From Lachnospiraceae bacterium (GTDB lineage Bacteria > Bacillota > Clostridia > Lachnospirales > Lachnospiraceae), in NCBI GenBank assembly GCA_017469935.1, contig JAFUFL010000022.1, forward strand, positions 40,197-104,196: a stretch of 64,000 nucleotides of DNA, given 5' to 3'. This document shows, piece after piece, positions 1 through 13,468 of the stretch. The notes under the pieces are model-generated. The model worked only from the letters and a program-made list of their open reading frames with translations, had not been told where the DNA came from and did no database searches. Numbering within the stretch: the stretch's first letter is position 1; every line of letters begins with the position of its first letter. A program made the translations under genes and the position numbers.

Positions 1-2334
1 ACGGGCTCGGTCTGTAACAAGGGACCCTATGTGGAGATCTTTGCACAGGGAAGCGAGGAGCAGACGCAGAATTTTGTGAATCTGCTGGAGAAGAAGCCGC
101 CGAGAAGAGCGGCGGTCCTCAAGACGGATGTCCGAAATGCGGACGATTCGGGGCGCTCTTTTGACTCCTTCGAGATCATCGAGAGTGCCAAAACCAAGGG
201 AGAAATCTTCATCTCGCCGGATATCGCGATCTGCGAGGAGTGCAAGGCGGAGCTCTATGATCCGTCGGACAGACGGTATCTGCACCCGTTCATTAACTGC
301 ACCTGCTGCGGGCCGCGCCTGACGATTCTGGATGCGCTTCCTTATGACAGAGAGCGGACCAGTATGAAGATGTTTCCCATGTGTCCGCAGTGCGCGCAGG
401 AGTATCACTCTCCCTCGAGCAGGCGCTATGACGCGCAGCCCGTGTGCTGCAATGAATGCGGGCCGCAGGTCTATCTGGCCGGCGAAGAATCGGTGCGGGG
501 GAGAGAGGCAATCACAAGGACGCGCAGGATCATCGCCGAGGGCGGAATCGCGGCGATCAAAGGAATCGGAGGCTTTCACCTCTGCTGCGACGCGACCAAC
601 GAAGAAGCGGTGGCAAAGCTGCGGGCAAGAAAGACCAGGCCGGTCAAGCCCTTTGCCGTCATGATGCGGGATGAGGCGGTCGCGGAGCGGGAGTGCGTGA
701 TCAGTGAGCGGCAGAAGGAGATCCTCACCGGGCACCAGAAGCCGATTCTCCTGCTGGAGAAAAGGCCGCAAGGAAGGCTGTGTCCCTCTATTGCGCCGGG
801 AAATCCGACAGTCGGCGTCATGCTCCCGTATGCGCCGGTACAGCTATTACTGTTTGATTACACAGATGAGATCAAAATGCCGGACTGCCTTGTCATGACG
901 AGCGGCAATGTGTCGGGCGCCCCTATCTGCAGGGATGACAGCGAGGCACTGCAGGAGCTCGGGAATCTGTGCGACTGTATTTTGTCCCACGACCGGAAGA
1001 TCCGGATCCGGGCGGACGACTCGGTCATGGATTTCTATGACGACGAGCCCTATATGATCCGCCGATCCAGGGGCTACGCGCCGCTCCCTTACATGCTGTC
1101 CGCATGGGGCGAGAGCGTGGGAGAAGGAAGCGGCACAGGAATTCTGGCTATCGGCGGAGAACTGAAGAATACATTCTGCATCGGAACAGGGGGACTTTTC
1201 TATCCGTCTTCCTATATCGGAGACCTGGCGGACCTTCGCAGCGTTAAGGCGCTGGAGGAGACGACAGAGAGATATGCGCGGCTCCTGGAAGTGACGCCGC
1301 AGGTCATCGCCTGCGACATGCATCCCCGATACAACTCAGTAACAACGGCCCTGGAGCTGGCGGAGAAGATCGGCAGGGAACAGGGAGGCGGACTGCTTCC
1401 CGTCGTGCGGGTGCAGCACCACTACGCACATATCCTGAGCTGTATGGCGGAAAACGACTTTTCGGAACGCGTGATCGGCGTGTCCATGGACGGAACCGGA
1501 TACGGAACGGACGGGACAATCTGGGGCGGAGAGATTCTGACTGCGGACTATCGATCTTTTGACAGGGCAGCCAGTATAAGGCCCTTTGTACAGGTGGGCG
1601 GCGATCTGTCCTCCCGGGACGGATGGAGGATCGCGGTTTCCATGCTGCACAGCATCGGTAAGGCAGAAGAGGCGGACTCGCCGCTGGCTGATGCCGGCAG
1701 GGTCATAAAAGAGCTCGAACTGTGCACTGAGCAGGAGGCGGCCGTCCTGAGAAAAATGGCGGACCGAGGACTCAACGCGGTGACATCCACAAGTGCGGGA
1801 CGGCTGTTTGACGCCGTGAGCGCGATCTGCGGGATCTGCAGGCATTCCACCTTCGAAGGGGAGGCCTCCATGGCACTGGAATTTGCCGCCGAGCGGTATG
1901 AGAAAGCGGTCGGGAAATCCGAACCCGGCGATGGGCAATCGGCAGTTTCTTCTGCGTGGAATGAAAACGCGGAGACTGTGAGCAAAAGCGAAGACGGAAG
2001 GCTGATCCTTCCCACGGAAGCAATCGTCAGAGAGATCACGCTGGGAAGACTGCGGGGAGAAGAACCGGACAAGCTGGCCTTTCTCTTCCACAAAAGGCTT
2101 GCGGATCAGATCATCGAGGCATGCTGTGAGATCCGCAAGGAAAACGGAGTCGGAACGGCGGCCCTGAGCGGCGGGTGCTTCCAGAACAGGCTTCTGCTGG
2201 ATCTGGTCAAAAAAGGGCTGGAGAGGCGGGGCTTCCGGGTGCTGATTCATCATCTGGTGCCGCCTAATGACGGAGGAATTGCGCTGGGGCAGGCGGTGGC
2301 CGCCCAGCAGAGAGTATTAGATAGAGCACTGTAA
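1..2334 (+). CDS. hypF: Carbamoyltransferase HypF ([NiFe] hydrogenase maturation), 5' end outside window
   Basis: HypF makes the thiocarbamate precursor of the cyanide ligands of [NiFe] hydrogenase from carbamoyl phosphate and ATP and loads it onto HypE. The reading frame is open from base 1 (codons TGSVCNKGPYVEIFAQG), which is the end of the N-terminal acylphosphatase domain, so the true start lies upstream; the GTG at 31 is internal. Next come two zinc-finger CxxC pairs (CEEC, CTCC, CPQC, CNEC), a YrdC-like domain (GIAAIKGIGGFHLCCDA) and a Kae1-like carbamoyltransferase domain with the metal-site motif HHYAH and the ending ALSGGCFQNRLL. The gene stops 10 bases before hypC. The family assignment is firm. 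Confidence 0.96.
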   Translation, partial: TGSVCNKGPYVEIFAQGSEEQTQNFVNLLEKKPPRRAAVLKTDVRNADDSGRSFDSFEIIESAKTKGEIFISPDIAICEECKAELYDPSDRRYLHPFINCTCCGPRLTILDALPYDRERTSMKMFPMCPQCAQEYHSPSSRRYDAQPVCCNECGPQVYLAGEESVRGREAITRTRRIIAEGGIAAIKGIGGFHLCCDATNEEAVAKLRARKTRPVKPFAVMMRDEAVAERECVISERQKEILTGHQKPILLLEKRPQGRLCPSIAPGNPTVGVMLPYAPVQLLLFDYTDEIKMPDCLVMTSGNVSGAPICRDDSEALQELGNLCDCILSHDRKIRIRADDSVMDFYDDEPYMIRRSRGYAPLPYMLSAWGESVGEGSGTGILAIGGELKNTFCIGTGGLFYPSSYIGDLADLRSVKALEETTERYARLLEVTPQVIACDMHPRYNSVTTALELAEKIGREQGGGLLPVVRVQHHYAHILSCMAENDFSERVIGVSMDGTGYGTDGTIWGGEILTADYRSFDRAASIRPFVQVGGDLSSRDGWRIAVSMLHSIGKAEEADSPLADAGRVIKELELCTEQEAAVLRKMADRGLNAVTSTSAGRLFDAVSAICGICRHSTFEGEASMALEFAAERYEKAVGKSEPGDGQSAVSSAWNENAETVSKSEDGRLILPTEAIVREITLGRLRGEEPDKLAFLFHKRLADQIIEACCEIRKENGVGTAALSGGCFQNRLLLDLVKKGLERRGFRVLIHHLVPPNDGGIALGQAVAAQQRVLDRAL

Positions 2335-2344
2335 GGAGGAAAAT

Positions 2345-2557
2345 ATGTGTGTAGGACTTTCTGCGAGAGTAGTCAAGATCAATGAGAACGGTACGGCGCT
2401 TGTAGACGCCAGCGGAGCAAAGAGGCAGGTCTCCGCGCAGCTCCTTGAAGATCTGGAGCCGGGCGATTACGTCATGGTTCACGCGGGAGCCGCTATTTCC
2501 AAGATCACCGGTGATGACCAGTCGGAGACGCAGGATCTTCTGGAGGCGTATTTATGA
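2345..2557 (+). CDS. hypC: Hydrogenase assembly chaperone HypC/HupF
   Basis: This 70-residue protein starts with MCVGLSARV; the Cys after the initiator Met is the residue HypC uses to hold the Fe(CN)2CO unit with HypD and to contact the hydrogenase large-subunit precursor. The rest has the small beta-barrel pattern, with LEPGDYVMVHAGAAISKI typical of the family. A ribosome site (AAGGAGGA) lies just upstream of the ATG. The stop codon overlaps the hypD start as ATGA, so translation is probably coupled. Confidence 0.95.
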   Translation: MCVGLSARVVKINENGTALVDASGAKRQVSAQLLEDLEPGDYVMVHAGAAISKITGDDQSETQDLLEAYL

Positions 2558-3624
2558 GTCAGAACAGCACAAATACGGCCGGCGACAAGAAAAAGAGCGC
2601 GCTGGACATTCTCAAGAATTACAGCGGACCCGAAGTGCGGATCATGGAGGTGTGCGGCACGCACACCCACGAGATCTTCCGCCTGGGCATCCGCAAAATA
2701 TTGCCGAAGAACATTCGCCTGATCTCCGGGCCGGGATGTCCGGTCTGCGTGACGCCGGTCATTTTTATCGACGAGGCGCTGCTTCTGGCCCTCGAACACG
2801 GCTGCACGATCTGCACGTTCGGCGATCTGGTGCGGGTGCCTGGCACGTCATCGAGCCTTCAGAAGGCGCGCGGCGAAGGGGCCAAAGTACAGGTCGTCTA
2901 TTCCCCGGCGGACGCGGTGGATTACGCGGCCGCTCATCCGCAGGAGCAGGTGGTCTTTCTGTCAGTAGGCTTTGAGACCACGACACCTTCCGTGTGCCTG
3001 GCGGTACAGTCGGCGCAGGAGAAGGGAGTGGAGAATTTCTCTGTTTTGACCGCCAATAAGACCATGCCCGGAGCCTATGAGGCCATGAAGGACAGCACGG
3101 ACCTGTACCTGTATCCCGGTCATGTGCACGCGATCGTCGGAACGGGGATTTGCGAGGAGCTGGCGGCGCGCGGCGTGAGCGGCGTCTGCGCAGGGTTTAC
3201 GGCGGCGGAGCTCGTGACGGCACTGGCCGTGGCAGTGACCAAATTCGAGAAGGGGGAGCCTTTCTTCGTCAACTGTTACCCCAGAGTGGTCAGGCCCCAG
3301 GGGCAGCCGGCGGCGGTCCGCCTTGTGGACTCTATGATGGAGCCCTGCGACAGCGAGTGGAGAGGAATCGGCGAGATTCCGCTCTCCGGCATGAAACTGA
3401 GAGATTCCTACGCGCAGTTTGACGCGAGGATCAAATTCAATCTGCCCAAAGTGGAGGGAAAGAGCAATCCCGCCTGCCGATGCGGGGAGGTCCTGCAGGG
3501 CAAATGCCTGCCCTCCGACTGCAAGGTTTTCGGCAAAGTCTGCACGCCCGAGCACCCCATCGGAGCCTGTATGGTATCCGGAGAGGGCGCCTGTTCGGCT
3601 TTCTATCTGTATGGAGGAGAATGA
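2554..3624 (+). CDS. hypD: Hydrogenase formation protein HypD
   Basis: HypD (356 residues) is the iron-sulfur scaffold on which the Fe(CN)2CO cofactor of [NiFe] hydrogenase is assembled together with HypC and HypE. Visible family motifs are MEVCGTHTHEI, GPGCPVCVTP, and a cysteine-rich C-terminus (CRCGEVLQGKCLPSDC) that binds the [4Fe-4S] cluster. Length matches the usual 350-370. It overlaps hypC by four bases and is followed by hypE after one base, so hypC-D-E behave as one translational unit. Confidence 0.97.
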   Translation: MSQNSTNTAGDKKKSALDILKNYSGPEVRIMEVCGTHTHEIFRLGIRKILPKNIRLISGPGCPVCVTPVIFIDEALLLALEHGCTICTFGDLVRVPGTSSSLQKARGEGAKVQVVYSPADAVDYAAAHPQEQVVFLSVGFETTTPSVCLAVQSAQEKGVENFSVLTANKTMPGAYEAMKDSTDLYLYPGHVHAIVGTGICEELAARGVSGVCAGFTAAELVTALAVAVTKFEKGEPFFVNCYPRVVRPQGQPAAVRLVDSMMEPCDSEWRGIGEIPLSGMKLRDSYAQFDARIKFNLPKVEGKSNPACRCGEVLQGKCLPSDCKVFGKVCTPEHPIGACMVSGEGACSAFYLYGGE

Positions 3625-3625
3625 G

Positions 3626-4636
3626 ATGAGTAAGAGCGATACAGTAACACTGGCGCACGGCGCCGGAGGCAAGCAGACCTCCGAGCTGATCGACCGCGTC
3701 TTCAAGGCACATTTTCAGAACCCGCTCTTTACGGCGGACGACGCGGCCGTGATCGATGTCGAGAAGGGAAAGATCGCCATGTCCACGGACGGCTTCATCG
3801 TATCTCCGGCCTTCTTTGCGGGCGGCAATATCGGCAAGCTCTCGATCTGCGGCACGGTCAACGACCTGGCCTGCATGGGCGCCGTGCCCAAATATCTCAC
3901 CTGCGGATTTGTCATCGAAGAGGGCTTTCCCATGGATCAGCTCGAGGAGATCGCCGCCGCCATGGAGAAGACGGCCGCGGAAGCGGGCGTGAAGATCGTA
4001 GCAGGTGACACCAAGGTCGCCGGAAAGGGACAGGTGGACGGCGTATTCATCAACACGACGGGTGTCGGCATCATTCCCGAGGGCATTCGCACCTCCGGTG
4101 CGCTGGCAAAGCCCGGCGACGCCGTCATTGTGACCGGCGACATCGGAAGACACGGCTGCACGATTCTTCTCGAGAGAGAGGACTACGGGATTGAGGCGGA
4201 CGTCACCAGCGACTGCGCGCCCCTTTCGGGAGCGGTACAGGCTGCCCTGACCGCTGTCCCCGAGATCCACGTCATCCGAGACGCCACAAGAGGCGGCGTA
4301 GGCACCGTTCTCTACGAGATCGCGGCGCAGAGCGGCGTCGGCGTGAACCTGGAAGCGGCGGCCATCCCGGTCGATCCGGCCGTAAAGGGCGTCTGCGGAC
4401 TGCTGGGCCTGGAGCCGCTGTATCTGGCCTGCGAAGGCCGGCTCGTAATGATCTGTCCCGAGGAGAGCGCGGAGCTTCTGCTGGAGACACTCCGGGCCTG
4501 CAAATATACCGAGGGCGCGGCTATGATCGGCCGGATCACGGATCAGATGCCCGGAAGAGTGACCATGACCACAGAGATCGGGGCGCAAACGCTCCTTCCC
4601 CAGCCCGGAAATGAGCTGCTTCCCAGAATCTGCTGA
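3626..4636 (+). CDS. hypE: Hydrogenase expression/formation protein HypE
   Basis: HypE dehydrates the thiocarbamate on its C-terminal cysteine to a thiocyanate and passes the cyanide to iron on HypC-HypD. The protein is 336 residues when started at the ATG one base after hypD; the preceding GGAGGA lies inside the hypD end. The PurM-like fold is seen from the start (LAHGAGGKQTSELI, then DDAAV). The protein ends exactly with the diagnostic PRIC, so Cys336 is intact. The frame is open further upstream, but that stretch is hypD coding sequence read out of frame. Confidence 0.97.
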   Translation: MSKSDTVTLAHGAGGKQTSELIDRVFKAHFQNPLFTADDAAVIDVEKGKIAMSTDGFIVSPAFFAGGNIGKLSICGTVNDLACMGAVPKYLTCGFVIEEGFPMDQLEEIAAAMEKTAAEAGVKIVAGDTKVAGKGQVDGVFINTTGVGIIPEGIRTSGALAKPGDAVIVTGDIGRHGCTILLEREDYGIEADVTSDCAPLSGAVQAALTAVPEIHVIRDATRGGVGTVLYEIAAQSGVGVNLEAAAIPVDPAVKGVCGLLGLEPLYLACEGRLVMICPEESAELLLETLRACKYTEGAAMIGRITDQMPGRVTMTTEIGAQTLLPQPGNELLPRIC

Positions 4637-4658
4637 AGTGACTTTCGGAGGGACCGGT

Positions 4659-4928
4659 ATGAGCATAGAGACGAGAGTGGCGGTGATCTCGATCATCGTG
4701 GAGAACGAGGACGCCGCGCAGAAGATCAATGAGATCCTTCACGAATACCGCGGGTACGTGATCGGCAGAATGGGCATCCCCTACAGGAGCAAGGGCATCA
4801 ATATCATCAGTGTCGCCGTGGACGCGCCGCAGGAGAAGATCAGCGCCCTGTCGGGCCGGATCGGAAGGCTTCCGGGCACCAGTGCCAAGACGGCCTATTC
4901 CAATGTGATCACCAAAACGGAGATCTGA
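4659..4928 (+). CDS. TM1266-type iron-only hydrogenase system regulator
   Basis: This 89-residue protein starts at an ATG preceded by GGAGGG. It begins with MSIETRVAVISIIVEN and carries an ACT-like beta-alpha-beta pattern; NEILHEYRGYVIGRMGIPYRSKGINIISVAVDAP, split over two halves, is the hallmark of the TM1266 family, which travels with [FeFe]-hydrogenase maturation genes. There is no DNA-binding domain, so the regulator name comes from family annotation and from resemblance to the NikR ligand domain. It sits between hypE and the nitrogenase-like genes and links the [NiFe] and [FeFe] parts of the island. Confidence 0.85.
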   Translation: MSIETRVAVISIIVENEDAAQKINEILHEYRGYVIGRMGIPYRSKGINIISVAVDAPQEKISALSGRIGRLPGTSAKTAYSNVITKTEI

Positions 4929-4955: not shown

Positions 4956-7142
4956 ATGATCAGAATAGCTTTTTACGGCAAAGGCGGCATCGGGAAATCG
5001 ACGACCGTTTCAAACTTATCCCGCTACTGGGCGGAGCGCGGCATGTGCGTGCTGCAGATCGGCTGCGATCCCAAGGCGGACTCCACGCTGAGCCTTCGCG
5101 GCGGAGCAGAGCTTCCGACTGTCATGGAGATGGTACGAAGGAGGGAGCCGTTTGCTCTCGAGGACGTGATCTGCGTACGCGAGACCGAAGGCGGAGGCAG
5201 GATTATCTGCGCGGAGGCCGGCGGGCCTACGCCCGGGCAGGGCTGCGCGGGCCGCGGAATCATCACGGCGCTGGAGACCTTGCGGGACAAGGATATTTTG
5301 GCAAAATACAGGCCGGATATCATTCTCTATGACGTCCTGGGCGATGTGGTCTGCGGCGGATTCGCCATGCCCATGCGGGAGGGATTCGCCAACAGAGTCT
5401 ACGTCCTGACATCCGGGGAGAACATGGCCATCTACGCGGCCGCCAATATCGGCCTGGCCGTGCAGGGGTTCAAAGAAAGAGGGTACGCGCAGCTGGGCGG
5501 ACTGATCCTCAACCGCCGGAATGTAAAGCGAGAAGAGGAGAAGGTGCAGGAGCTGGCAGAGGACCTGCACACGGAGGTGATCGGCCGGCTGGAGCGGTCC
5601 GAGACGGTGCAGGAGGCGGAAGAGCAGGGCACCACTGTCATGGAAGCCTTTCCGGACTCCGACATGGCGGCCGCCTACAGGGATCTCGCGGACAGGATCG
5701 CGCGGGACTGCCAAATTCAGTATCCGGCCGCTGAACGATCTTTTGGCGGGGCAAAAGAGTGCTCCCTCTCGGATCTGTCCGGAAATCCTGCCAGGATTCC
5801 CATCGGAGAGGCCTCCTTTCCGGCTCCGTTTACGGCGGGACTGGAGTTCAACGCGCCCGTCCACGAGACCTGGAACATCGTCCACATCGGCATGCTGATG
5901 CCGCAGGCCCACCAGATCTACATCTGTTCGGACAACTGCATGCGGGGCGTCGTGATGACGGCGGCGGAGATGAACGCGATCGAGCGCTTTTCCTGCGTCG
6001 TTCTCGAGGAGAAGGACATGCAGGGCGGGAACCTGGAAGAGATCACGCTGGAAGGGATCACGGACGTGCTGGGCAAGATTCGTCAGAAGCGAGGCGAGGA
6101 AGGGCTTCCCAAGGCAGTCCTGGTCTTCCCGGTGTGCCTGCACCACTTTATGGGGTGCGACATGGGCTATGTCTACAGGGAACTGGAAAAGAGATTTCCG
6201 AGCATTGTCTTCGTGAAATGCTGGATGGATCCCATCATGCAGAAGACCGGCCCTACGCCCGACCAGAAGCTGCGAAAAGCCATGATGGACGTGCTGCCGC
6301 TCTGTGAAGGCAGAACCGGGCATACGGCCCTTCTCGGGGATATCTATGCGCTGGATCCGGAGAGCGATCTCATGAAGCTGATCCGGAGAGCAGACGAGAA
6401 GAGGGGGACGGTCTCGGAGCCGCTGCAGATCCAGGACTGCGGGACACTGGAAGAGTACTGCAAGCTGTCTGGCAGGGAAGTGATGATCACTCGAAGCCCT
6501 CTTTCGGAAGTTTCCATAAGGCAGACGGCAAGGAGACTGGGCGCCGCGCCGCTCTATCTCCCGGCGGCCATAGGGTACGGTCAGATCAGAGAGCTTACGG
6601 AGAAGGCGGCGCAGGTCCTCGGAGTTACTTTGGAAGAAGCCGGGATCAATCCCGCGGCGGAAGAGAAGGCCTGCGACGACGCGATCCTTCATCTGAAGGG
6701 CCTGATCGGGGATACTCCCATCGCGATCGACTATATCTGCGTGCAGCGGCCTCTGGGGCTTGCGAAGCTCCTTCTTGAGCGGGGCCTGAATGTCAGGGAA
6801 GTCTACCTGGACGCGGTGAGCCCCGAGGAGCAGGAGGACTTCGACTGGCTGCGGGACAATCACGGCCAAGTGCTCCTGTGCAGCACGATCCATGTCAAGG
6901 GACGCCTTCTCCACGCGCAGGGAATCGACAGGCAGCACAGCGATTATCTGGCGGTAGGGCCCAAGGCGGCCTGGTTCTGCGGGACGCGGCATTTCGTCAA
7001 CCTGGTGGATTACGGCGGCATGTGGGGGTACAGCGGGATCCGCAAGCTCGCGGCGCTCATGGAAGACGCCTTTGTAAACGCCAAGGACACCAAGGACCTG
7101 GTGCCCAGAAAAGGACTGGGGTGCGAGAGCATTGTCATGTGA
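4956..7142 (+). CDS. NifH-like reductase fused to a nitrogenase component 1-like domain
   Basis: The 728-residue protein joins two nitrogenase-type modules. Residues 1-260 are NifH-like: P-loop GKGGIGKS at 8-15, CDPKADST near 37-44, cluster ligand Cys97 with Arg100 in GQGCAGRG, and second ligand Cys133 in LGDVVCGGFAMP. Residues about 300-728 resemble NifD/K-type proteins, with candidate cysteines at CSDNC (324, 328), VCLHHFMGC (394, 401) and KCW (422). The domains are separate polypeptides in nitrogenase, DPOR and CfbCD systems. The family indicates an ATP-driven low-potential reductase; the substrate is unknown. No nifENB genes are seen. It lies 27 bases after the TM1266-like gene and before a second component 1-like gene and hydF, hydE, which suggests a link to hydrogenase or H-cluster metabolism (inference). 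Confidence 0.85.
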   Translation: MIRIAFYGKGGIGKSTTVSNLSRYWAERGMCVLQIGCDPKADSTLSLRGGAELPTVMEMVRRREPFALEDVICVRETEGGGRIICAEAGGPTPGQGCAGRGIITALETLRDKDILAKYRPDIILYDVLGDVVCGGFAMPMREGFANRVYVLTSGENMAIYAAANIGLAVQGFKERGYAQLGGLILNRRNVKREEEKVQELAEDLHTEVIGRLERSETVQEAEEQGTTVMEAFPDSDMAAAYRDLADRIARDCQIQYPAAERSFGGAKECSLSDLSGNPARIPIGEASFPAPFTAGLEFNAPVHETWNIVHIGMLMPQAHQIYICSDNCMRGVVMTAAEMNAIERFSCVVLEEKDMQGGNLEEITLEGITDVLGKIRQKRGEEGLPKAVLVFPVCLHHFMGCDMGYVYRELEKRFPSIVFVKCWMDPIMQKTGPTPDQKLRKAMMDVLPLCEGRTGHTALLGDIYALDPESDLMKLIRRADEKRGTVSEPLQIQDCGTLEEYCKLSGREVMITRSPLSEVSIRQTARRLGAAPLYLPAAIGYGQIRELTEKAAQVLGVTLEEAGINPAAEEKACDDAILHLKGLIGDTPIAIDYICVQRPLGLAKLLLERGLNVREVYLDAVSPEEQEDFDWLRDNHGQVLLCSTIHVKGRLLHAQGIDRQHSDYLAVGPKAAWFCGTRHFVNLVDYGGMWGYSGIRKLAALMEDAFVNAKDTKDLVPRKGLGCESIVM

Positions 7143-7150
7143 GGGCGGCC

Positions 7151-7185
7151 CGCATGCGGCGCAGCGTCTCGAGCTGCGAACCTTG
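7151..7185 (+). repeat. Dispersed intergenic hairpin element, copy A (diverged)
   Basis: The stretch shares GCGGCGCAGCG and the ending CCTTG with copies at 50839, 33225 and 36327. In this copy the stem (CTCGAGCTGCGAA) has decayed. It lies between the two nitrogenase-like genes. Confidence 0.55.
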
Positions 7186-7198
7186 TAAGCGTGATGAA

Positions 7199-7286
7199 AA
7201 GCATTTGAACAGTTTCTGAGAAGCATTTGAACAGTTTCTGAGAAGCATTTGAACGGTATCAGAAAAGCATTTGAACAGGAGGAATC
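7199..7286 (+). repeat. 22-bp tandem repeat, four units, running into the ribosome site
   Basis: Units lie at 7199-7220, 7221-7242, 7243-7264 and 7265-7286. The first two are identical, the third has about four changes, and the fourth keeps the first 14 bases. All begin AAGCATTTGAAC. The fourth unit ends in AGGAGG (7277-7282), the ribosome site of the next gene, so the array forms its translation leader. Confidence 0.9.
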
Positions 7287-7287
7287 T

Positions 7288-8538
7288 ATGCGACAGGCAT
7301 ACCGAATTCTGCCGGTCTATACGGGAGACGTATCCGGCGTGTGCAGCGCCCTGTACGAGCTGGGCGGCATGGTGGTCATGCACGACCCGTCGGGCTGTAA
7401 TTCCACCTATAACACACATGACGAGATCCGATGGTATGACCGGGACAGCCTGATCTTTCTGTCGGGACTGTGCGAGCCGGACGCGATTATGGGAAATGAC
7501 GCCAAATTCATCGAGGACGTGGTCAGGGCCGCGCAGGAGTTTTCTCCCGCCTTTATAGCGCTGTGCAACTCGCCGATCCCGTATCTGACGGGGACGGATT
7601 TTGCAGGGATCTGCCGGATCATCGAACACCGGACCGGGATTCCCTCCTTCTACATTCCGACCAACGGGATGCACGACTATATCAGCGGAGCCGGGCTCGC
7701 CTTCGAGAAGCTGGCGGAAAAGCTTTTCGGGGAGGGAAATCCGGAAAGCGCACAGGTCGACAGGAAGGAGTCCGGGAAGCAGGAATCCGGGCGCAGGGAG
7801 TCTGATCATCAGGAGTCCGGGCGTGAGAACAGAGAGATCCGTGTCAATATTTTGGGTATGACGCCTCTGGACTATGCGGCGGATACCTGCTGCGGTTCTC
7901 TGAGAGAGATTCTGGAGGCCGAGGGCTTCCGCGTGGTGTCTGTATGGGCCATGGGAGATACCCTGGAGCAGCTCCGGAAGGCTGGCGATGCCGACGTCAA
8001 CCTTGTCGTCTCCGCCAGCGGTCTCAGGGCCGCGCGCTATCTGCAGAAGTGCTTCGGTACGCCCTGGGTGGCGGGCGCCCCCGTGGGAATCGCGGCGAAA
8101 GAGCTGCTTGAGAGACTCCGGCAGGCGGCTGCCGGGGGAGAGAGCGGACCCTTCTACGGGCGCGGCCGGGAAGAGACGCGGGATCTCCCGCAATGCATCG
8201 TGATCGGAGAGCCGGTCCTGTCCTGCAGCATCGCGGAGGACTGCGAGGCGAAGGACATGCGCACTAAAGTGATCGCGGCGACCGAGGAGAGCGAATCCCT
8301 GCTTCGGCCAGGTGACCTCATCTGCCGTGGCGAAGAGGAAATCGAGAATACCCTGAAGGTGCTGTGCAAGCCCGGGACCTTGGTCATTGCGGACCCCATG
8401 TACGGTTATGTGCTTCCGGAGGGAGCCGAGCTGGAGGAGGCGCCGCACCTGGCCTTCTCAGGAAGGATCTACCGAAAGAGATTCCGGGATCCGTTCCAAG
8501 GAGGATTCATTACGAAAGGAGAGAGCGATGGGACTTAA
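7288..8538 (+). CDS. Nitrogenase component 1-like protein (NifD/NifK family)
   Basis: The 416-residue protein starts at an ATG five bases after AGGAGG; an in-frame TTG at 7249 inside the repeat array is less likely. The N-terminus follows the component 1 plan with candidate P-cluster-type cysteines: Cys19 (SGVCSALYEL), Cys37 (MHDPSGCNSTY) and Cys93 (ALCNSPIPYLTGTDF). The partner is presumably the component 1-like half of the preceding fusion, giving a heteromeric catalytic unit. Residues about 153-185 form a hydrophilic insert of repeated ESG-type units not expected in this fold. The 3' end overlaps hydF by 11 bases, so the gene is tied to hydrogenase maturation. Substrate unknown. Confidence 0.85.
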   Translation: MRQAYRILPVYTGDVSGVCSALYELGGMVVMHDPSGCNSTYNTHDEIRWYDRDSLIFLSGLCEPDAIMGNDAKFIEDVVRAAQEFSPAFIALCNSPIPYLTGTDFAGICRIIEHRTGIPSFYIPTNGMHDYISGAGLAFEKLAEKLFGEGNPESAQVDRKESGKQESGRRESDHQESGRENREIRVNILGMTPLDYAADTCCGSLREILEAEGFRVVSVWAMGDTLEQLRKAGDADVNLVVSASGLRAARYLQKCFGTPWVAGAPVGIAAKELLERLRQAAAGGESGPFYGRGREETRDLPQCIVIGEPVLSCSIAEDCEAKDMRTKVIAATEESESLLRPGDLICRGEEEIENTLKVLCKPGTLVIADPMYGYVLPEGAELEEAPHLAFSGRIYRKRFRDPFQGGFITKGESDGT

Positions 8539-9727
8539 CGCTGTGCCTTCGGGCGAGAGAGTGCATATCGGCTTTTTCGGCAGAAGAAATGCCGGAAAAT
8601 CCAGCCTCGTCAACGCGGTGACCGGCCAGGAGATCTCCGTGGTCTCCGACGTAAGGGGCACGACCACGGATCCTGTGACCAAGTCCATGGAGCTGCTTCC
8701 TCTGGGACCGGTGGTCATCATCGACACGCCCGGATTTGACGACGAAGGAGCCCTGGGCGAAAAGCGCGTGGCGCGGGCCAAAAGAGTGATGAACCGGACC
8801 GATCTGGCCGTCCTTGTGCTGGACGCGCAGACCGGCATGTCGCAGGCGGACATCGAGCTCCTGGCGCTGTTTAAAGAGAAACAGATTCCTTATCTTATCG
8901 TCTGCAACAAGGCGGATCTTCTCACACCGGACGCGCAGTCAGGACCTGATATCCTCTATGTGAGCGCGAAGAGTGGACAGGGGATTCATGATCTCAAGGA
9001 GAAAATTGCCGCTCTGGGAACGGCCGGCGCCGTCAAGAAGTACCTGATCGAGGACCTGATCGAGCCCTCCGAGGTTGTGCTTTTGGTGATTCCCATCGAC
9101 AAGGCGGCTCCCAAGGGACGTCTCATCCTGCCTCAGCAGATGATGATCCGGGGGATCCTCGACGCGGACGGCATACCGGTCTGTGTCAAGCAGGACCGTC
9201 TGCCGGAAGTCCTGGAAAAGCTGGGCGAAAATGCAAAGCCCGGTCTGGTCATCACGGACAGCCAGGTCTTCTCGGAGGTGGCGAAGGCGGTTCCGGAGGG
9301 GATCCCGCTCACATCCTTCTCTATTTTGATGGCAAGGTACAAGGGATTTCTGGCCTGTGCACTGGAGGGCGTTAAAAAGATCGACGACCTCAGGGACGGA
9401 GATACAGTCCTGATTTCCGAGGGCTGCACGCACCACAGGCAGTGCGGCGACATCGGCACGGAGAAGATCCCGAACTGGATCCGGCAAAAGACCGGGGCGG
9501 ATATACGCTTCGAGACCTCCTCGGGAACGGGCTTTCCGGAGGACCTGAGTAAATACGCCTTGGTCATCCACTGCGGGGCCTGCATGCTGGGCGACCGCGA
9601 AGTGCGCTACCGCATGAAGTGCGCGCAGGACCAGGGGATCCCCTTTACAAATTACGGAACGGCGATCGCCCACATGAAGGGCATTCTTGAGAGAAGTACG
9701 GAAATAGTGCGAGATGAACAGAATTGA
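8528..9727 (+). CDS. hydF: [FeFe] hydrogenase H-cluster maturation GTPase HydF
   Basis: HydF is the scaffold that receives the di-iron subcluster made by HydE and HydG and delivers it to the [FeFe] hydrogenase. The 399-residue protein has an Era-like GTPase domain with P-loop GRRNAGKS at 18-25, DTPGFDD and NKAD. The C-terminal cluster domain carries CTHHRQCGDIG near residue 300 and HCGACMLG near 348, the family's cluster ligands. The ATG at 8528 follows AAAGGAGAG and overlaps the previous gene; the frame is open further upstream, but that part is the coding region of the nitrogenase-like gene. No hydG occurs in the window. Confidence 0.96.
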   Translation: MGLNAVPSGERVHIGFFGRRNAGKSSLVNAVTGQEISVVSDVRGTTTDPVTKSMELLPLGPVVIIDTPGFDDEGALGEKRVARAKRVMNRTDLAVLVLDAQTGMSQADIELLALFKEKQIPYLIVCNKADLLTPDAQSGPDILYVSAKSGQGIHDLKEKIAALGTAGAVKKYLIEDLIEPSEVVLLVIPIDKAAPKGRLILPQQMMIRGILDADGIPVCVKQDRLPEVLEKLGENAKPGLVITDSQVFSEVAKAVPEGIPLTSFSILMARYKGFLACALEGVKKIDDLRDGDTVLISEGCTHHRQCGDIGTEKIPNWIRQKTGADIRFETSSGTGFPEDLSKYALVIHCGACMLGDREVRYRMKCAQDQGIPFTNYGTAIAHMKGILERSTEIVRDEQN

Positions 9728-10844
9728 GAGAACCCAGGAACTGGTCGGAATCCTGGAAAGGGAACATGCGCTTTCGGACGAGGCGCTGAGCGACCTCCTT
9801 GACATTCTGGAGGAGACGGGCGCGGAGCGCACCGTGCAGATCCGCGATGCCATACCGGCCGCCGTGTGCACGCCCGAGGAGGCGGTCCTGTATGCCGCCG
9901 CGCGAAAGGTAAGGGAGCAGTATTACGGAAAAGACGTCTATCTGCGAGGACTCATAGAGTTCACCAACTACTGCAGGAACGACTGCCGGTACTGCGGCAT
10001 CCGCAGGAGCAACACCAAGGCGGAGCGCTACAGGCTCAGCGACGAGCAGATTCTGCGCTGCTGCGGGCAGGGATATGCGCTGGGTTTTCGGACCTTTGTC
10101 CTGCAGGGCGGCGAAGACATGTACTATACAGATGAGAGAATCTGCGGGATTGTGAGAGCAATCCGGGAGAGATATCCGGACTGCGCCATAACGCTTTCCA
10201 TCGGGGAAAAGAGCAGGGAGTCCTATCTGGCGTACAGGGAAGCAGGGGCGGACCGCTATCTTTTGCGGCAGGAGACTTCGAACCCGGAACATTACCGGTA
10301 CCTTCATCCCGCACAGCTCTCCATCGAGAACCGGAAGCGGTGCCTCAGCGACCTCAAGGAGATCGGCTACCAGGTCGGCTGCGGGATCATGGTGGGGTCC
10401 CCCGGGCAGACGAGGGAGCACATTATAGAGGACCTGCGCTATATGCAGGATTTCGGGCCGCATATGATCGGGATCGGGCCTTTTATCCCGCACAAGGACA
10501 CTCCCTTTGCGGACGAGAAGGCGGGGAGCCTCTATGACACGCTGCATCTTCTGGCCATCATCCGGCTTATGCTCCCGGGCGTGCTCCTTCCGGCCACCAC
10601 GGCGCTGGGCACGATCCACCCGGCGGGCAGGGAACTGGGGCTGCTCGCAGGCGCCAATGTCATCATGCCCAACATCTCGCCGGGGGATGTCAGGGGCAAA
10701 TACCTGTTATACGACGGCAAAATATGCACCGACGACGAGGCGGCCGCCTGCGGAAGGTGCATCGACCTGCGGATCCGCAAAGCGGGGTATATAACCGCGA
10801 TGAGCCGGGGAGACTGCGCCGGATTTGATACTGCACACAAGTGA
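9714..10844 (+). CDS. hydE: [FeFe] hydrogenase H-cluster radical SAM maturase HydE
   Basis: HydE is a radical SAM enzyme acting on the di-iron precursor of the H-cluster. The 376-residue protein carries the SAM-cluster motif CRNDCRYC (Cys87, Cys91, Cys94) after LRGLIEFTNY. Other family stretches are RYRLSDEQIL, FVLQGGED, LRQETSNPEHYRYLHP and GIGPFIPHKDTPF. It overlaps hydF by 14 bases, which points to coupled translation. A cysteine pair (CGRC) near the C-terminus fits the optional second cluster of the family. Confidence 0.96.
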   Translation: MNRIERTQELVGILEREHALSDEALSDLLDILEETGAERTVQIRDAIPAAVCTPEEAVLYAAARKVREQYYGKDVYLRGLIEFTNYCRNDCRYCGIRRSNTKAERYRLSDEQILRCCGQGYALGFRTFVLQGGEDMYYTDERICGIVRAIRERYPDCAITLSIGEKSRESYLAYREAGADRYLLRQETSNPEHYRYLHPAQLSIENRKRCLSDLKEIGYQVGCGIMVGSPGQTREHIIEDLRYMQDFGPHMIGIGPFIPHKDTPFADEKAGSLYDTLHLLAIIRLMLPGVLLPATTALGTIHPAGRELGLLAGANVIMPNISPGDVRGKYLLYDGKICTDDEAAACGRCIDLRIRKAGYITAMSRGDCAGFDTAHK

Positions 10845-10862
10845 GGAAAGGAAGGACGAAAG

Positions 10863-12227
10863 ATGGAATACAGGATCGAACACGACTCCATGGGAGAGAT
10901 GAGAGTGCCCGCGGACAGCTACTGGGGCGCGCAGACACAGAGAAGTTATCAGAACTTTCCGATCGGGACGGAGAAAATGCCCGCGGAGATCATCCGGGCT
11001 TTTGCCGTCTTAAAGAAAGCGGCGGCCCTTGCCAATCACAGACTGGGAAAACTTGACGAGAAGCGCTGCGCCCTGATCGGACAGGTCTGCGAGGAGATCA
11101 GGCGCGGGGAGCTGGACGGGCAGTTTCCGCTGGCGGTCTGGCAGACCGGGAGCGGCACCCAGTCCAATATGAACGTCAACGAGGTGATCGCGAACCGCGG
11201 CAATGAGATCGCCGGAGAAAAGCTCCTGCATCCCAACGACACCGTGAATATGTCCCAGAGTTCCAACGACACTTTCCCCACGGCTATGCACATCGCGGCC
11301 GTGACCGCCATCCGGCAGCAGCTGATCCCCGCACTGGACGCCATGATCGCAGAGATGAGCAGGCTGGAGAAAGAAAACGAGGGCGTCGTAAAGAGCGGAC
11401 GGACCCATCTGCAGGACGCGGTTCCGATCGCCTTCTCCCAGGAGATCAGCGGCTGGCGGTCCATGCTTGAAAAGTGTAAAGGAATGATCCTGGACTCCGA
11501 GAAGGGGCTCACCGAGCTTGCGCTCGGCGGAACGGCCGTCGGAACCGGCCTCAACGCGCCGGCAGGGTTTGCGGAGGAAGCCGCGAAGGCGGTCTCGGAG
11601 CTGACCGGATATCAGTTCCGGACGGAAGAGAACAAGTTCCACGCGCTCTCCGCCAAGGACGCCGTCGTCTACTCCCACGGGGCGCTCAAGGCGCTGGCCG
11701 CGGACATGATGAAGATCGCCAATGATATAAGGTGGCTCTCGAGCGGTCCCCGGTGCGGTCTCGGCGAGATCTTTATACCGGAGAACGAGCCGGGAAGCTC
11801 CATCATGCCGGGCAAGGTCAACCCCACCCAGTGCGAGGCGGTGACCATGGTCGCCGTGCAGGTCATGGGCAATGACACCGCAGTCGGAATCGCCGCCTCC
11901 CAGGGCAATTTCCAGCTCAACGTCTTCATGCCCGTGATCATCTATAATTATCTGCAGTCTGTAAGGCTCCTCGCGGATGCCCTGAACTCTTTCAGGATCA
12001 ACTGTGTGTGCGGCATCAAGGCAAACCGAGAGAAGATGAACCACAACCTGCACAACTCGCTCATGCTGGTCACGGCGCTCAATCCTTACATCGGCTATGA
12101 GAACGCGGCCAAGACGGCGAAACTTGCCCACAAGGAGAACATCTCCCTCAAAGAGGCCTGTGTGAAACTGGGCTTCCTGACGCCGGAGAGATTCGACGAA
12201 GTGTTCCATCCCGAGCAGATGGTCTGA
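10863..12227 (+). CDS. fumC: Class II fumarate hydratase FumC
   Basis: The enzyme interconverts fumarate and malate without an iron-sulfur cluster. The 454-residue protein has the three superfamily signatures: [25 protein letters not shown] (catalytic His) and [15 protein letters not shown] (catalytic Ser loop). [10 protein letters not shown] separates fumarase from aspartase, which has PAKVNP followed by a different tail. It starts at an ATG preceded by GAAAGGAAGG, 18 bases after hydE, and may be read from the same transcript. An intrinsic terminator follows. Confidence 0.95.
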
Positions 12228-12282
12228 GCTCAGATGAATTGCGTTCAATACTCCGGGACCCGGGCACTATAGCAAAATATAC

Positions 12283-12320
12283 CCCTGCCGCAGGAAAATC
12301 TTGCGGCAGGGCGTTTTTTC
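12283..12320 (+). terminator. Intrinsic terminator after fumC
   Basis: A 10-bp stem (CCCTGCCGCA paired with TGCGGCAGGG) is followed by GCGTTTTTT. It ends the long hyp/hyd/fumC run. Confidence 0.9.
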
Positions 12321-12324
12321 GTTG

Positions 12325-12353
12325 TTGTCATGGAATCAGAAGTAGGGTAAAAT
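12325..12353 (+). promoter_or_regulatory. Promoter for hisC
   Basis: TTGTCA at 12325-12330 and TAAAAT at 12348-12353 are 17 bases apart, just after the fumC terminator and 35 bases before the hisC start. Confidence 0.7.
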
Positions 12354-12388
12354 ACGCTGGGGTATTTCTTAAGACAAGGAGGAAGATT

Positions 12389-13468
12389 GTGTCCTGGGAG
12401 AGTAAAGTTAAAAAAACAGTTCCTTATACGGCAGGAGAACAGCCGAAGGACAAGAACATCATCAAACTCAATACCAACGAATGCCCTTATCCGCCGGCAC
12501 CCGGCGTGACGAAAGCGATCAGGGAACTCGCGGAGAGATCCGACGATCTGCGCCTGTATCCGGATATGAACGCTTCGGCCCTTGTGGATGCACTGGCTGA
12601 TTTTTATGGAATCAGCAGCGATCAGATCTTCGTCGGTGTGGGATCCGACGATGTTCTCGCACTCTGCTTTCTGACCTTTTTCACAAACGGAGACCCGATC
12701 CTGTTTCCGGCCGTGACTTACAGCTTTTACCCCGTCTGGGCGGATCTTTACGGCATCAAGTACAAGCAGATCCCGCTCACGAGCAATATGGGCATCGATG
12801 AATATGAGTACATGCCCGGCCTCACAAGGTTTAAAAACGGCGGGATCATCTTCCCGAATCCCAACGCGCCCACCGGCGTGGAGGAGCCGCTGAGCAAGAT
12901 CGAGAAGATCGTGAAGTCCAATCCGGACAGTGTCGTCATCGTGGACGAGGCTTATATCGATTTCGGAGGGACCAGCGCGCTGCCTATGATCGACAAATAC
13001 GACAATCTTCTTGTCGTGCAGACTTTCTCCAAGTCCCGCTCCATGGCGGGAATGCGAATAGGCTTTGCGATGGGAAGCGAGAAACTCATAGGTTACCTGA
13101 AGGACGTCAAGTTCTCCTTCAATTCCTATACGATGAACCTTCCTTCCATTATGATCGGAAAGGCTGCTGTCGAGGACAGGGACTATTTTGAATCGACCAC
13201 GGGCAAAATAGTGGCGACCAGAGAAAGGTTCAAGGCACAGCTGCGGGAGATGGGCTTTAAATTCCCGGATTCCAAGGCAAATTTCGTGTTTGCCATGCAT
13301 CCCGGCTTTTCGGGCGACTATCTCTTTGCGGAACTGAGAAAGAGAAATATCGTGGTGCGCCACTGGAACGCTCCGGCAATCAGCGCGTTCCTTCGGATCA
13401 CCATCGGAACTGACGAGCAGATGGATGCCGTCGCGGCAGCGCTCAGAGAGATCACGACAGCAAAGTAA
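12389..13468 (+). CDS. hisC: Histidinol-phosphate aminotransferase HisC
   Basis: HisC transfers an amino group between glutamate and imidazole-acetol phosphate in histidine synthesis; relatives act on aromatic amino acids. The 359-residue class I/II aminotransferase shows LNTNECPYPP, GVGSDDVL, NPNAPTG, IVDEAYIDF and TFSKSRSMAGMRIG, where Lys215 binds PLP. The GTG start at 12389 is chosen for the AAGGAGG seven bases upstream; a start further upstream would read through the promoter. It stands alone from other his genes except hisA at the far end of the window. Confidence 0.9.
   Translation: MSWESKVKKTVPYTAGEQPKDKNIIKLNTNECPYPPAPGVTKAIRELAERSDDLRLYPDMNASALVDALADFYGISSDQIFVGVGSDDVLALCFLTFFTNGDPILFPAVTYSFYPVWADLYGIKYKQIPLTSNMGIDEYEYMPGLTRFKNGGIIFPNPNAPTGVEEPLSKIEKIVKSNPDSVVIVDEAYIDFGGTSALPMIDKYDNLLVVQTFSKSRSMAGMRIGFAMGSEKLIGYLKDVKFSFNSYTMNLPSIMIGKAAVEDRDYFESTTGKIVATRERFKAQLREMGFKFPDSKANFVFAMHPGFSGDYLFAELRKRNIVVRHWNAPAISAFLRITIGTDEQMDAVAAALREITTAK

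Follow-up and report, generated by a model that had tools for sequence, protein, structure and literature searches.

A nitrogenase-like protein system in hydrogenase maturation gene clusters may stand in for HydG in the assembly of the [FeFe]-hydrogenase H-cluster

The present work concerns a two-gene nitrogenase-like system located in a stretch of 64,000 nucleotides of contig JAFUFL010000022.1 from a Lachnospiraceae bacterium (hereafter the window, to which all the positions refer unless another locus or contig is named), and its possible involvement in the maturation of [FeFe]-hydrogenases. The system is composed of a fusion between a NifH-like ATPase (H1) and a divergent component-1 domain (D1), and of a second component-1 protein (K1); it is embedded in a compact cluster, listed in Table 1, in which the starts of the genes from hypF to hydE overlap or sit close together. 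Just upstream of the window, the same genome (G000; G and L numbers refer, respectively, to the genomes and loci compared) harbors a separate NifH gene (H2) and a gene encoding an 865-aa fusion of two component-1 domains (D2-K2), located at positions 36731-40095 of contig C24 and ending about 100 bases before the window start, so that in G000 the hyp genes are flanked by two nitrogenase-like complexes. The set H1-D1-K1 plus hydE and hydF is referred to as module A, and the set H2-D2-K2 plus hypFCDE as module B. The hypC gene was named from its position and motif, without a family-model score.

Table 1. Genes and domains of the cluster embedding the nitrogenase-like system.
Feature	Position	Strand	Evidence and remarks
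hypF	1..2334	+	TIGR00143 704 bits (cut-off 466); gene begins shortly upstream of the window; match C24:40122-42500
hypC	2345..2557	+	70 aa; start MCVGLSAR (Cys2 kept); 4-base overlap with hypD
hypD	2554..3624	+	TIGR00075 362 bits
hypE	3626..4636	+	TIGR02124 410 bits; ATG 3626 behind GGAGGAG; C-terminal PRIC
TM1266-family putative iron-only hydrogenase system regulator	4611..4928	+	TIGR03959 112 bits; PF21699 E 4e-31; start uncertain
H1-D1 fusion	4956..7142	+	728 aa; NifH-like ATPase and divergent component-1 domain
H1 domain (residues 1-262)	4956..5741	+	PF00142 (Fer4_NifH) E 3.5e-79; P-loop, C97, C133
D1 domain	5742..7142	+	candidate cluster ligands C324, C328, C394 (fusion numbering)
K1, component-1 protein	7288..8538	+	416 aa; PF00148 E 1.8e-28; Cys37 is the conserved cysteine
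hydF, H-cluster scaffold GTPase	8528..9727	+	TIGR03918 540 bits; 11-base overlap with K1
hydE, radical-SAM H-cluster maturase	9714..10844	+	TIGR03956 539 bits

The Fer4_NifH match covers residues 3-254 of the fusion, and residues 383-631 match Oxidored_nitro (PF00148) with 21.6 bits, under the cut-off of 28.6. A D1 profile built on 16 relatives reaches NifE in the Protein Data Bank (PDB; E values of 1.1e-6 over the full sequence and 0.011 for the best stretch alone) and a NifD/NifE profile aligns with D1 over 317 columns (E 4.3e-10), which shows that this weak component-1 domain is real; K1 matches the same NifD/NifE profile with an E value of 9.4e-22, and its start is most likely the ATG at 7288, behind AGGAGG, rather than the TTG at 7249. 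The two cluster cysteines corresponding to Cys97 and Cys133 of H1 are kept in all the NifH rows examined (27/27 of module A, 20/20 of module B, and 28/28 of a sister type, referred to as type 0, and other NifH sequences), and 87 of 90 NifH rows show the strict P-loop pattern. The original prediction, i.e., that the first protein carries both NifH cysteines, a P-loop, and a component-1-like domain, was borne out by this row-wise conservation and by the profile matches, and the same holds for its view of a nitrogenase-like, probably ATP-driven system. With the P-loop, the two NifH cysteines, and a component-1 fold all present, the system belongs to the nitrogenase superfamily.

The distribution of D1 was analyzed by scanning one genome per species over 84,980 species and keeping the best 80 of 411 relatives of the fusion protein (L005-L084). 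A D1 locus was defined by a D1 protein scoring more than 200 bits against that of the window; including later additions, and having dropped L158 (a copy of L017) from 58 loci, 57 distinct loci were obtained, two of which (L008 and L009) are 98% alike. According to the record names, D1 carriers belong to Lachnospiraceae, Oscillospiraceae, Ruminococcaceae, Eubacteriaceae, Erysipelotrichaceae, Peptococcaceae, and Lentisphaerota, with one Lactobacillus and one Desulfovibrionaceae. Most of the records are metagenome bins, and the titles of many point to rumen and gut samples; Pseudoramibacter porci (L041) and Porcincola intestinalis (L028) are named strains. In the stretch compared, hyd, hyp, or TM1266 genes lie beside D1 in 54 loci out of 57. 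H1 and D1 are fused in only nine loci, all near that of the window, and are encoded by separate genes in the rest; the system thus recurs in other genomes, but the fusion is confined to one small clade of close kin, to which alone its proposed role in fixing the stoichiometry of reductase and catalytic domains could apply, and the fusion as a functional hallmark was rejected.

It is known that HydG is the source of the CO and CN ligands of the [FeFe]-hydrogenase active site and that, in the canonical route, it makes [Fe(cys)(CN)(CO)2]-, which is passed directly to HydE (PMC12752695). The occurrence of HydG and D1 was therefore compared in two samples. The first embeds 120 genomes of the family of the window, 70 of which possess HydF and 57 of these also HydG: among the HydF-bearing genomes, 10 of the 13 that lack HydG carry D1, as against none of the 57 that possess it. 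The 18 HydG-bearing genomes of this sample showing any component-1 match were checked region by region; G038, G058, G003, and G048 carry only genes of the sister type 0, not D1. The second sample embeds 318 genomes of the phylum, 188 with HydF and 175 with HydG (all the latter possessing HydF as well), and D1, at a threshold of 200 bits or more, is found in 9/13 HydF-bearing genomes lacking HydG versus 0/175 of those harboring it; the weaker matches of G467, G365, and G166 (91-138 bits) belong to the sister type. Fisher's test, in which relatedness is ignored, gave p values of 7e-10 (family) and 1e-12 (phylum); pooling the samples, with G000 counted once, D1 occurs in 18/25 versus 0/232 genomes (p 2e-22, relatedness again ignored). 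The two states also coexist at short range, since the family groups f1, f30, f35, and f55 each contain both HydG-bearing members and members with D1 and without HydG.

A set of 42 D1 genomes (G000, the genomes of 32 loci, and nine of the family sample) was then considered as a whole. All of them possess the [FeFe]-hydrogenase HydA (PF02906), and HydG scores above the cut-off in just one (G140), G000 being among those without it. HydG matches below the cut-off (about 170-205 bits) were counted as absent; the two that were tested, from L092 and L093, are ThiH (531 and 521 bits), and the rest were assumed to be alike. G037 and G070, in which HydG is fragmentary and split, respectively, were counted among the HydG-bearing genomes. 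One HydA of G000 retains the H-cluster motifs TSCCPGW, PCTAKK, and MACPGGC intact. Hence, of the components of [FeFe]-hydrogenase maturation, HydE and HydF are present, with HydA in the genome, and HydG is missing.

The gene order points in the same direction. In 9 of 20 regions with HydG the order is TM1266-hydE-hydG-hydF, whereas in L162 it is TM1266-permease-ATPase-hydE-H1-D1-K1-substrate protein-hydF, and L029, with the substrate protein at 7537-8655, shows the same order starting at the permease, with the TM1266 domain fused to the ATPase. In these loci, H1-D1-K1 occupies the slot of hydG, between hydE and hydF. As regards HydE itself, the comparison of 27 proteins from HydG-less genomes with 14 from HydG-bearing ones disclosed 72 positions highly conserved in both sets and no position at which each set has a different residue in at least 75% of its members. 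The differences are minor: position 186 is His in 13/14 HydG-bearing versus 16/27 HydG-less proteins, and C157 and G299 are invariant in the HydG-less proteins but not in the others. Two weak differences were detected in HydF (20 versus 12 proteins). Such a little-changed HydE suggests that it still receives the unit produced by HydG, and it is probable, judging from this conservation, that HydE of the D1 carriers takes the same product.

Overall, the gene context, the strict replacement of HydG, and the little-changed HydE place the system in the assembly of the H-cluster of [FeFe]-hydrogenases, rather than leaving it as the orphan ATP-dependent reductase of unknown substrate that had been proposed at first. 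We assign a probability of about 0.8 to the reading that H1-D1-K1 substitutes for HydG and supplies an Fe-CO-CN unit to HydE. It shares with HydG the slot (L029, L162) and the partners HydE, HydF, and TM1266, and the occurrence of the two is nearly exclusive; unlike HydG, to which it is unrelated, it would use an ATP-driven reduction instead of the radical cleavage of tyrosine.

The hyp genes are the other recurrent partner. HypF is a carbamoyltransferase. According to PMC4506123, HypF and HypE form the cyanide precursor from carbamoyl phosphate on the cysteine of a PR(I/V)C motif, and HypC/HypD carry the Fe(CN)2CO unit. In the compared loci, the C-terminal PRIC of HypE is kept in 36/36 copies, the CGTH and GPGCPVC motifs of HypD in 32/33, and a HypC of the MCVG type adjoins 28 of 33 hypD genes. 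HypF, for which the motif pattern was uninformative and presence was defined by a score above the cut-off, is found in 38 of the 42 D1 genomes, and it is located away from the cluster in G129 and G137, which are of the importer type described below. As in the [NiFe] pathway, HypC, D, E, and F are present and the catalytic motifs of C, D, and E are kept; differently from it, the hyp genes lie here among hyd genes and nitrogenase-like complexes. At an E value of 1e-5, no [NiFe] large subunit was found in 26 of the 38 HypF-bearing D1 genomes; among the others, the match is full-length in G149 and limited to the first 70 positions in 11. G000, one of these 11, possesses as the matching enzyme, on contig C47 (L094 5435-9683), a [NiFe] hydrogenase, presumably of the Ech type judging from its motifs, with its own hypD and hypE, and a single HypF match in the whole genome. 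The possibility that the hyp genes serve only a [NiFe] enzyme was thus discarded, given the 26/38 carriers without a [NiFe] match and the separate hypD and hypE of the G000 enzyme.

Module B or hyp genes are present in 45 of the 57 D1 loci. Eight other loci contain a FecCD permease or a PeripBP_2 substrate protein, and in none of the 57 do the importer and module B or hyp genes occur together, so that within the loci the two appear mutually exclusive. The remaining four have neither: L042, whose stretch is incomplete, L104 and L112, the genomes of which harbor module B elsewhere (L124 and L111, respectively), and L165. In the latter (8274-11596, G442), H1-D1-K1 stands without hyd, hyp, importer, or module B genes nearby, downstream of a small open reading frame (ORF) that looks flavodoxin-like by eye, and its D1 groups with those of L104 and L112. 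The fusion of the importer ATPase with a TM1266 domain in L029 (PF00005 and PF21699) connects the importer with the maturation of hydrogenases. Outside close kin, no further unlabelled gene family was found in at least six of 56 D1 loci, genes beyond the loci not being visible; the one unlabelled family that recurs does so only beside the window and its close kin.

As regards the likely cluster site, the three D1 cysteines indicated in Table 1 are kept in 46/48 (C324), 48/48 (C328), and 48/48 (C394) sequences (62, 66, and 132 in the numbering of the cut piece). C422 (41/48), C495 (43/48), and C723 (45/48; 160, 233, and 461 in the cut piece) are also common, so the ligand set of D1 is not settled. 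The original prediction had envisaged three P-cluster-like ligands in K1; in 44 relatives, Cys37 is kept in 43 and is a strong ligand candidate, but Cys19 (35/44) and Cys93 (22/44) are not conserved enough, and the idea of a three-cysteine P-cluster fails (the three are 32, 50, and 106 in the TTG frame). In profile alignments, D1 C394 corresponds to the third cluster cysteine of NifD/NifE, and K1 C50 (Cys37 from the ATG) to the second, i.e., that of HGPVGC in NifD, while the cysteine binding the iron-molybdenum cofactor (FeMo-co; NifD Cys275 type) is absent, a serine being at that place in both D1 and K1 of the window. The cluster of dark-operative protochlorophyllide reductase (DPOR) is held by three cysteines of the D subunit plus one ligand of K. 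The pattern of D1-K1 fits one small bridging iron-sulfur cluster, possibly a single one of the [4Fe-4S] type with three D cysteines and one K residue, as in DPOR/CfbCD. In D2, cysteines 69, 70, 127, and 130, and in K2, cysteines 48 and 53 (cut-piece numbers) are each kept in 33/33 sequences, and the cluster of D2-K2 may be larger than that of D1-K1.

Phylogenetic trees were obtained by quick searches with Shimodaira-Hasegawa-like approximate likelihood ratio (SH-aLRT) support, the labels of the references similar to methylthio-alkane reductase (MAR) and to CfbC/D being assigned from neighboring genes. H1 and H2 form one group each (92 and 97), and the larger clade holding them is separated, with a support of 99, from the references of the NifH, MAR-like, CfbC-like, and BchL/X types. 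D1, D2, K1, and K2 are each one clade (97-100), and the D0-D1-D2 and K0-K1-K2 clades, both supported at 100, exclude the references of the Nif, MAR-like, Bch, and CfbD types; the D and K proteins of the Sporomusa type 0 sit just outside the D and K clades, on long branches. Judging from these topologies, D1/K1 and D2/K2 represent new clades within the nitrogenase superfamily, and the check that the original prediction had called for ended with H, D, and K outside the characterized Nif, MAR-like, CfbCD, and BchLNB/XYZ clades.

This placement also bears on the identity of the system. NifB (TIGR01290) does not score above the cut-off in any of the 42 D1 genomes, G000 included, in agreement with the reported lack of nifB; matches below the cut-off occur in three (G149, G150, G114). 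The claim that no nifE or nifN lies nearby is true by name, but it missed the second NifH and the double component-1 protein upstream of the window. The system is not a standard nitrogenase, as originally maintained, lying outside Nif in the trees, and an alternative nitrogenase was likewise rejected because both NifB above the cut-off and the FeMo-co cysteine are lacking. The identities of MAR, CfbCD, and DPOR were ruled out by the trees; a type other than chlorophyll, F430, or MAR had been anticipated, although from the neighborhood, in which the hydrogenase maturases had gone unrecognized. A close similarity is that with NifEN plus NifH: in both cases there is an ATPase Fe protein with two component-1 subunits, the D1 and D2-K2 profiles match NifE best in the PDB (K1 matching NifD and NifE about equally), and a role in cofactor assembly would be shared. 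The differences are that the clades of the carriers are separate (100), that NifB above the cut-off and the FeMo-co cysteine are missing, and that the genes belong to a hydrogenase operon. The [Fe8S9C] cluster is made by NifB. MAR is similar in being a nitrogen-fixation-like enzyme with separate H, D, and K, and it carries a P-cluster and [Fe8S9C] (PMC12552129); D1 carriers, unlike it, have no nifB above the cut-off, and the MAR-like references fall outside the clades. For DPOR/CfbCD, PMC12552129 states an [Fe4S4] cluster, but they belong to other clades and no tetrapyrrole genes occur among the cluster genes scored.

Structural models were folded for the fused D2-K2 of L005 and for H1-D1 of the window. 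The H1-D1 model has a mean predicted local distance difference test (pLDDT) score of 85.0 and a predicted template modelling (pTM) score of 0.60; in the Foldseek comparison, the 50 matches listed are all solved iron-protein (NifH) chains or complexes, with template modelling (TM) scores to the target of 0.78-0.87, and, since these cover about 250 residues, they say nothing about D1. Two PDB titles among the matches listed concern the capture or activation of CO2 by the iron protein. The best PDB match of the D2-K2 model is 9i0g (E 1.7e-25), a NifEN assembly protein that is likewise fused, and the single-chain matches of the model reach TM scores to the target of up to about 0.6.

On these bases, we favor a scheme in which H1 would hydrolyze ATP and pass electrons to an iron-sulfur cluster held mainly by the D1 cysteines and K1 Cys37. 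D1-K1 would be a NifEN-like assembly enzyme, not a nitrogenase, finishing or loading a mononuclear iron unit that bears CO and CN; HydE would take this unit in place of the HydG product, and the [2Fe] subcluster for HydA would then be completed by HydE together with HydF. In the lineage of the window, HypF and HypE would make cyanide from carbamoyl phosphate, as in most of the other lineages, HypC and HypD would hold the iron, and H2-D2-K2 would work with the Hyp proteins, its most likely task being to supply, or to reduce, the CO-bearing carbon. A minority lineage has, in place of both Hyp and H2-D2-K2, an importer of the FecBCD type, through which iron itself or an iron-ligand precursor would probably be taken up. 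For nitrogenase proteins, CO2, cyanate, and thiocyanate can be substrates, with CO or HCN as the product. Any one chemistry for H1-D1-K1 is nevertheless to be regarded as doubtful. An unlikely, more explicit version is a hybrid route in which Hyp cyanide comes from carbamoyl phosphate, CO from one ATP-driven nitrogenase-like complex, and the second complex hands Fe(CO)2(CN) to HydE, the importer lineages taking up a ready-made iron-CO/CN compound.

The replacement of HydG by H1-D1-K1 has to be weighed against other explanations. H1-D1-K1 might be an iron-supply reductase that strips iron from an imported or stored complex, CO and CN being produced by an unrecognized enzyme; only the dangler-iron role of HydG would then be replaced, and not its ligand chemistry. 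The link of the sister type 0 to transporters (25/34 loci, once with a siderophore receptor and an esterase) and the existence of D1 genomes without Hyp speak for this idea, which we consider improbable because HydG is absent in 41 of the 42 D1 genomes, so that a source of the ligands must be replaced too, and no further unlabelled family recurs in at least six D1 loci outside close kin (the rest of each genome not being visible). A good deal less credible is that the complexes serve an unrelated reduction, of a tetrapyrrole or CO2, sharing the operon only for regulation or hydrogen coupling, with the absence of HydG as a lineage accident. It is true that tetrapyrroles and sulfur compounds are substrates of other enzymes of the superfamily (PMC12552129), but both HydG states occur within four families, D1 spans phyla, H1-D1-K1 sits in the slot of hydG, and 54/57 loci have hyd, hyp, or TM1266 genes alongside. 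Scarcely any weight is given to the third possibility, that HydE and HydF suffice with traces of cellular CO and CN and that the nitrogenase-like complexes do no more than enhance the process or protect it: the activation of HydA to about 1% without HydG, cited in PMC9431212, and the seven HydF-bearing genomes with neither HydG nor D1 are in its favor, but a multi-gene set kept in 18/25 HydG-less versus 0/232 HydG-bearing HydF genomes looks like a replacement and not an enhancement.

Several observations nonetheless weigh against the substitution of HydG by H1-D1-K1. The seven genomes just mentioned (G038, G097, G105, G228, G251, G328, and G416) indicate that the loss of HydG can have other causes, including assembly gaps; four are fragmented assemblies, 93-94% complete, and G097, G105, and G251 are 96-99% complete. 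The loci of G038, G097, and G105 are L130, L100, and L101, and hydE adjoins hydF in the first genome. G140, a bin labelled Lactobacillus, possesses HydG together with two D1-K1 sets; its locus (L033 7959-17500) embeds these two sets, importer genes, hydE, and hydF, with HydG elsewhere in the genome, and it is possibly a mixed bin or a transitional state. Furthermore, the phylum searches scored at most four HydG and five HydF candidates per genome. G100, G114, and G136 lack both HydG and HypF, and G140 lacks HypF, all four carrying the importer; the absence of both in the first three implies that cyanide made by Hyp is not a general source. On the D1 tree, a minimum of two changes is enough to explain the importer/module-B state, so that few independent events stand behind the mutual exclusivity. 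With a mean pLDDT of 78.3 and a pTM of 0.60, the D2-K2 model is of intermediate quality and, over its whole length, its TM score to 9i0g is 0.34, with a root mean square deviation (rmsd) of 25.8, so that the arrangement of the D2 and K2 halves is not confirmed. Lastly, PMC9431212 cites an activation of HydA to about 1% by HydE and HydF alone, and HydG went undetected there by motifs in five of eight Clostridium acetogens, an atypical HydG being one explanation; ligand mechanisms as yet unknown are also raised in that paper for acetogens with HydE and HydF and no motif-detectable HydG.

Some additional features were disclosed along with the system. The type 0 sister clade of NifH-D-K has a substrate protein or permease of FecBCD-type importers in its 25 transporter-linked loci, as in L132 9001-12273 (Sporomusa termitida plasmid pSPTER), L056, L058, and L099; one locus carries a TonB siderophore receptor and an esterase, and the type might perhaps perform the ATP-driven reduction of an imported metal complex. 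G047 harbors a different, independent fusion of NifH and component 1 (L120 5167-7389; 740 aa, on a long branch) and, next to importer genes and a weak K1-like protein, a further NifH-like gene (L171 8549-13798). In the window, hydE is followed (10863-13468) by a class II fumarase-like and an aminotransferase-like gene, both named by eye; the former is also found in L005, L006, L008-L011, and L019, and the latter in L005, L006, L008, L010, and L019.

As regards novelty, no account of nitrogenase-like proteins in H-cluster assembly was found in the open-licence PMC literature, subscription papers and bioRxiv preprints lying mostly outside this scope; within it, the folds and the cofactor are known and the route appears undescribed, the missing HydG itself having been noted earlier (PMC9431212). 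A set of anaerobes with ordinary [FeFe]-hydrogenases and without HydG possesses instead one nitrogenase-like complex or two, in many cases along with Hyp proteins, and this could account for the occasional lack of HydG next to HydE and HydF. If this is confirmed, nature would have two routes to the H-cluster, the nitrogenase superfamily would have a further, new function, i.e., making the metal cofactor of an enzyme other than its own, and [NiFe] maturation would be linked to that of the [FeFe] enzymes, with relevance to hydrogen production in the rumen and gut, to the prediction of hydrogenase function from genomes, and to hydrogenase engineering. Should the hybrid route with its importer branch be true, members of gut communities would share the organometallic precursor as a common good.

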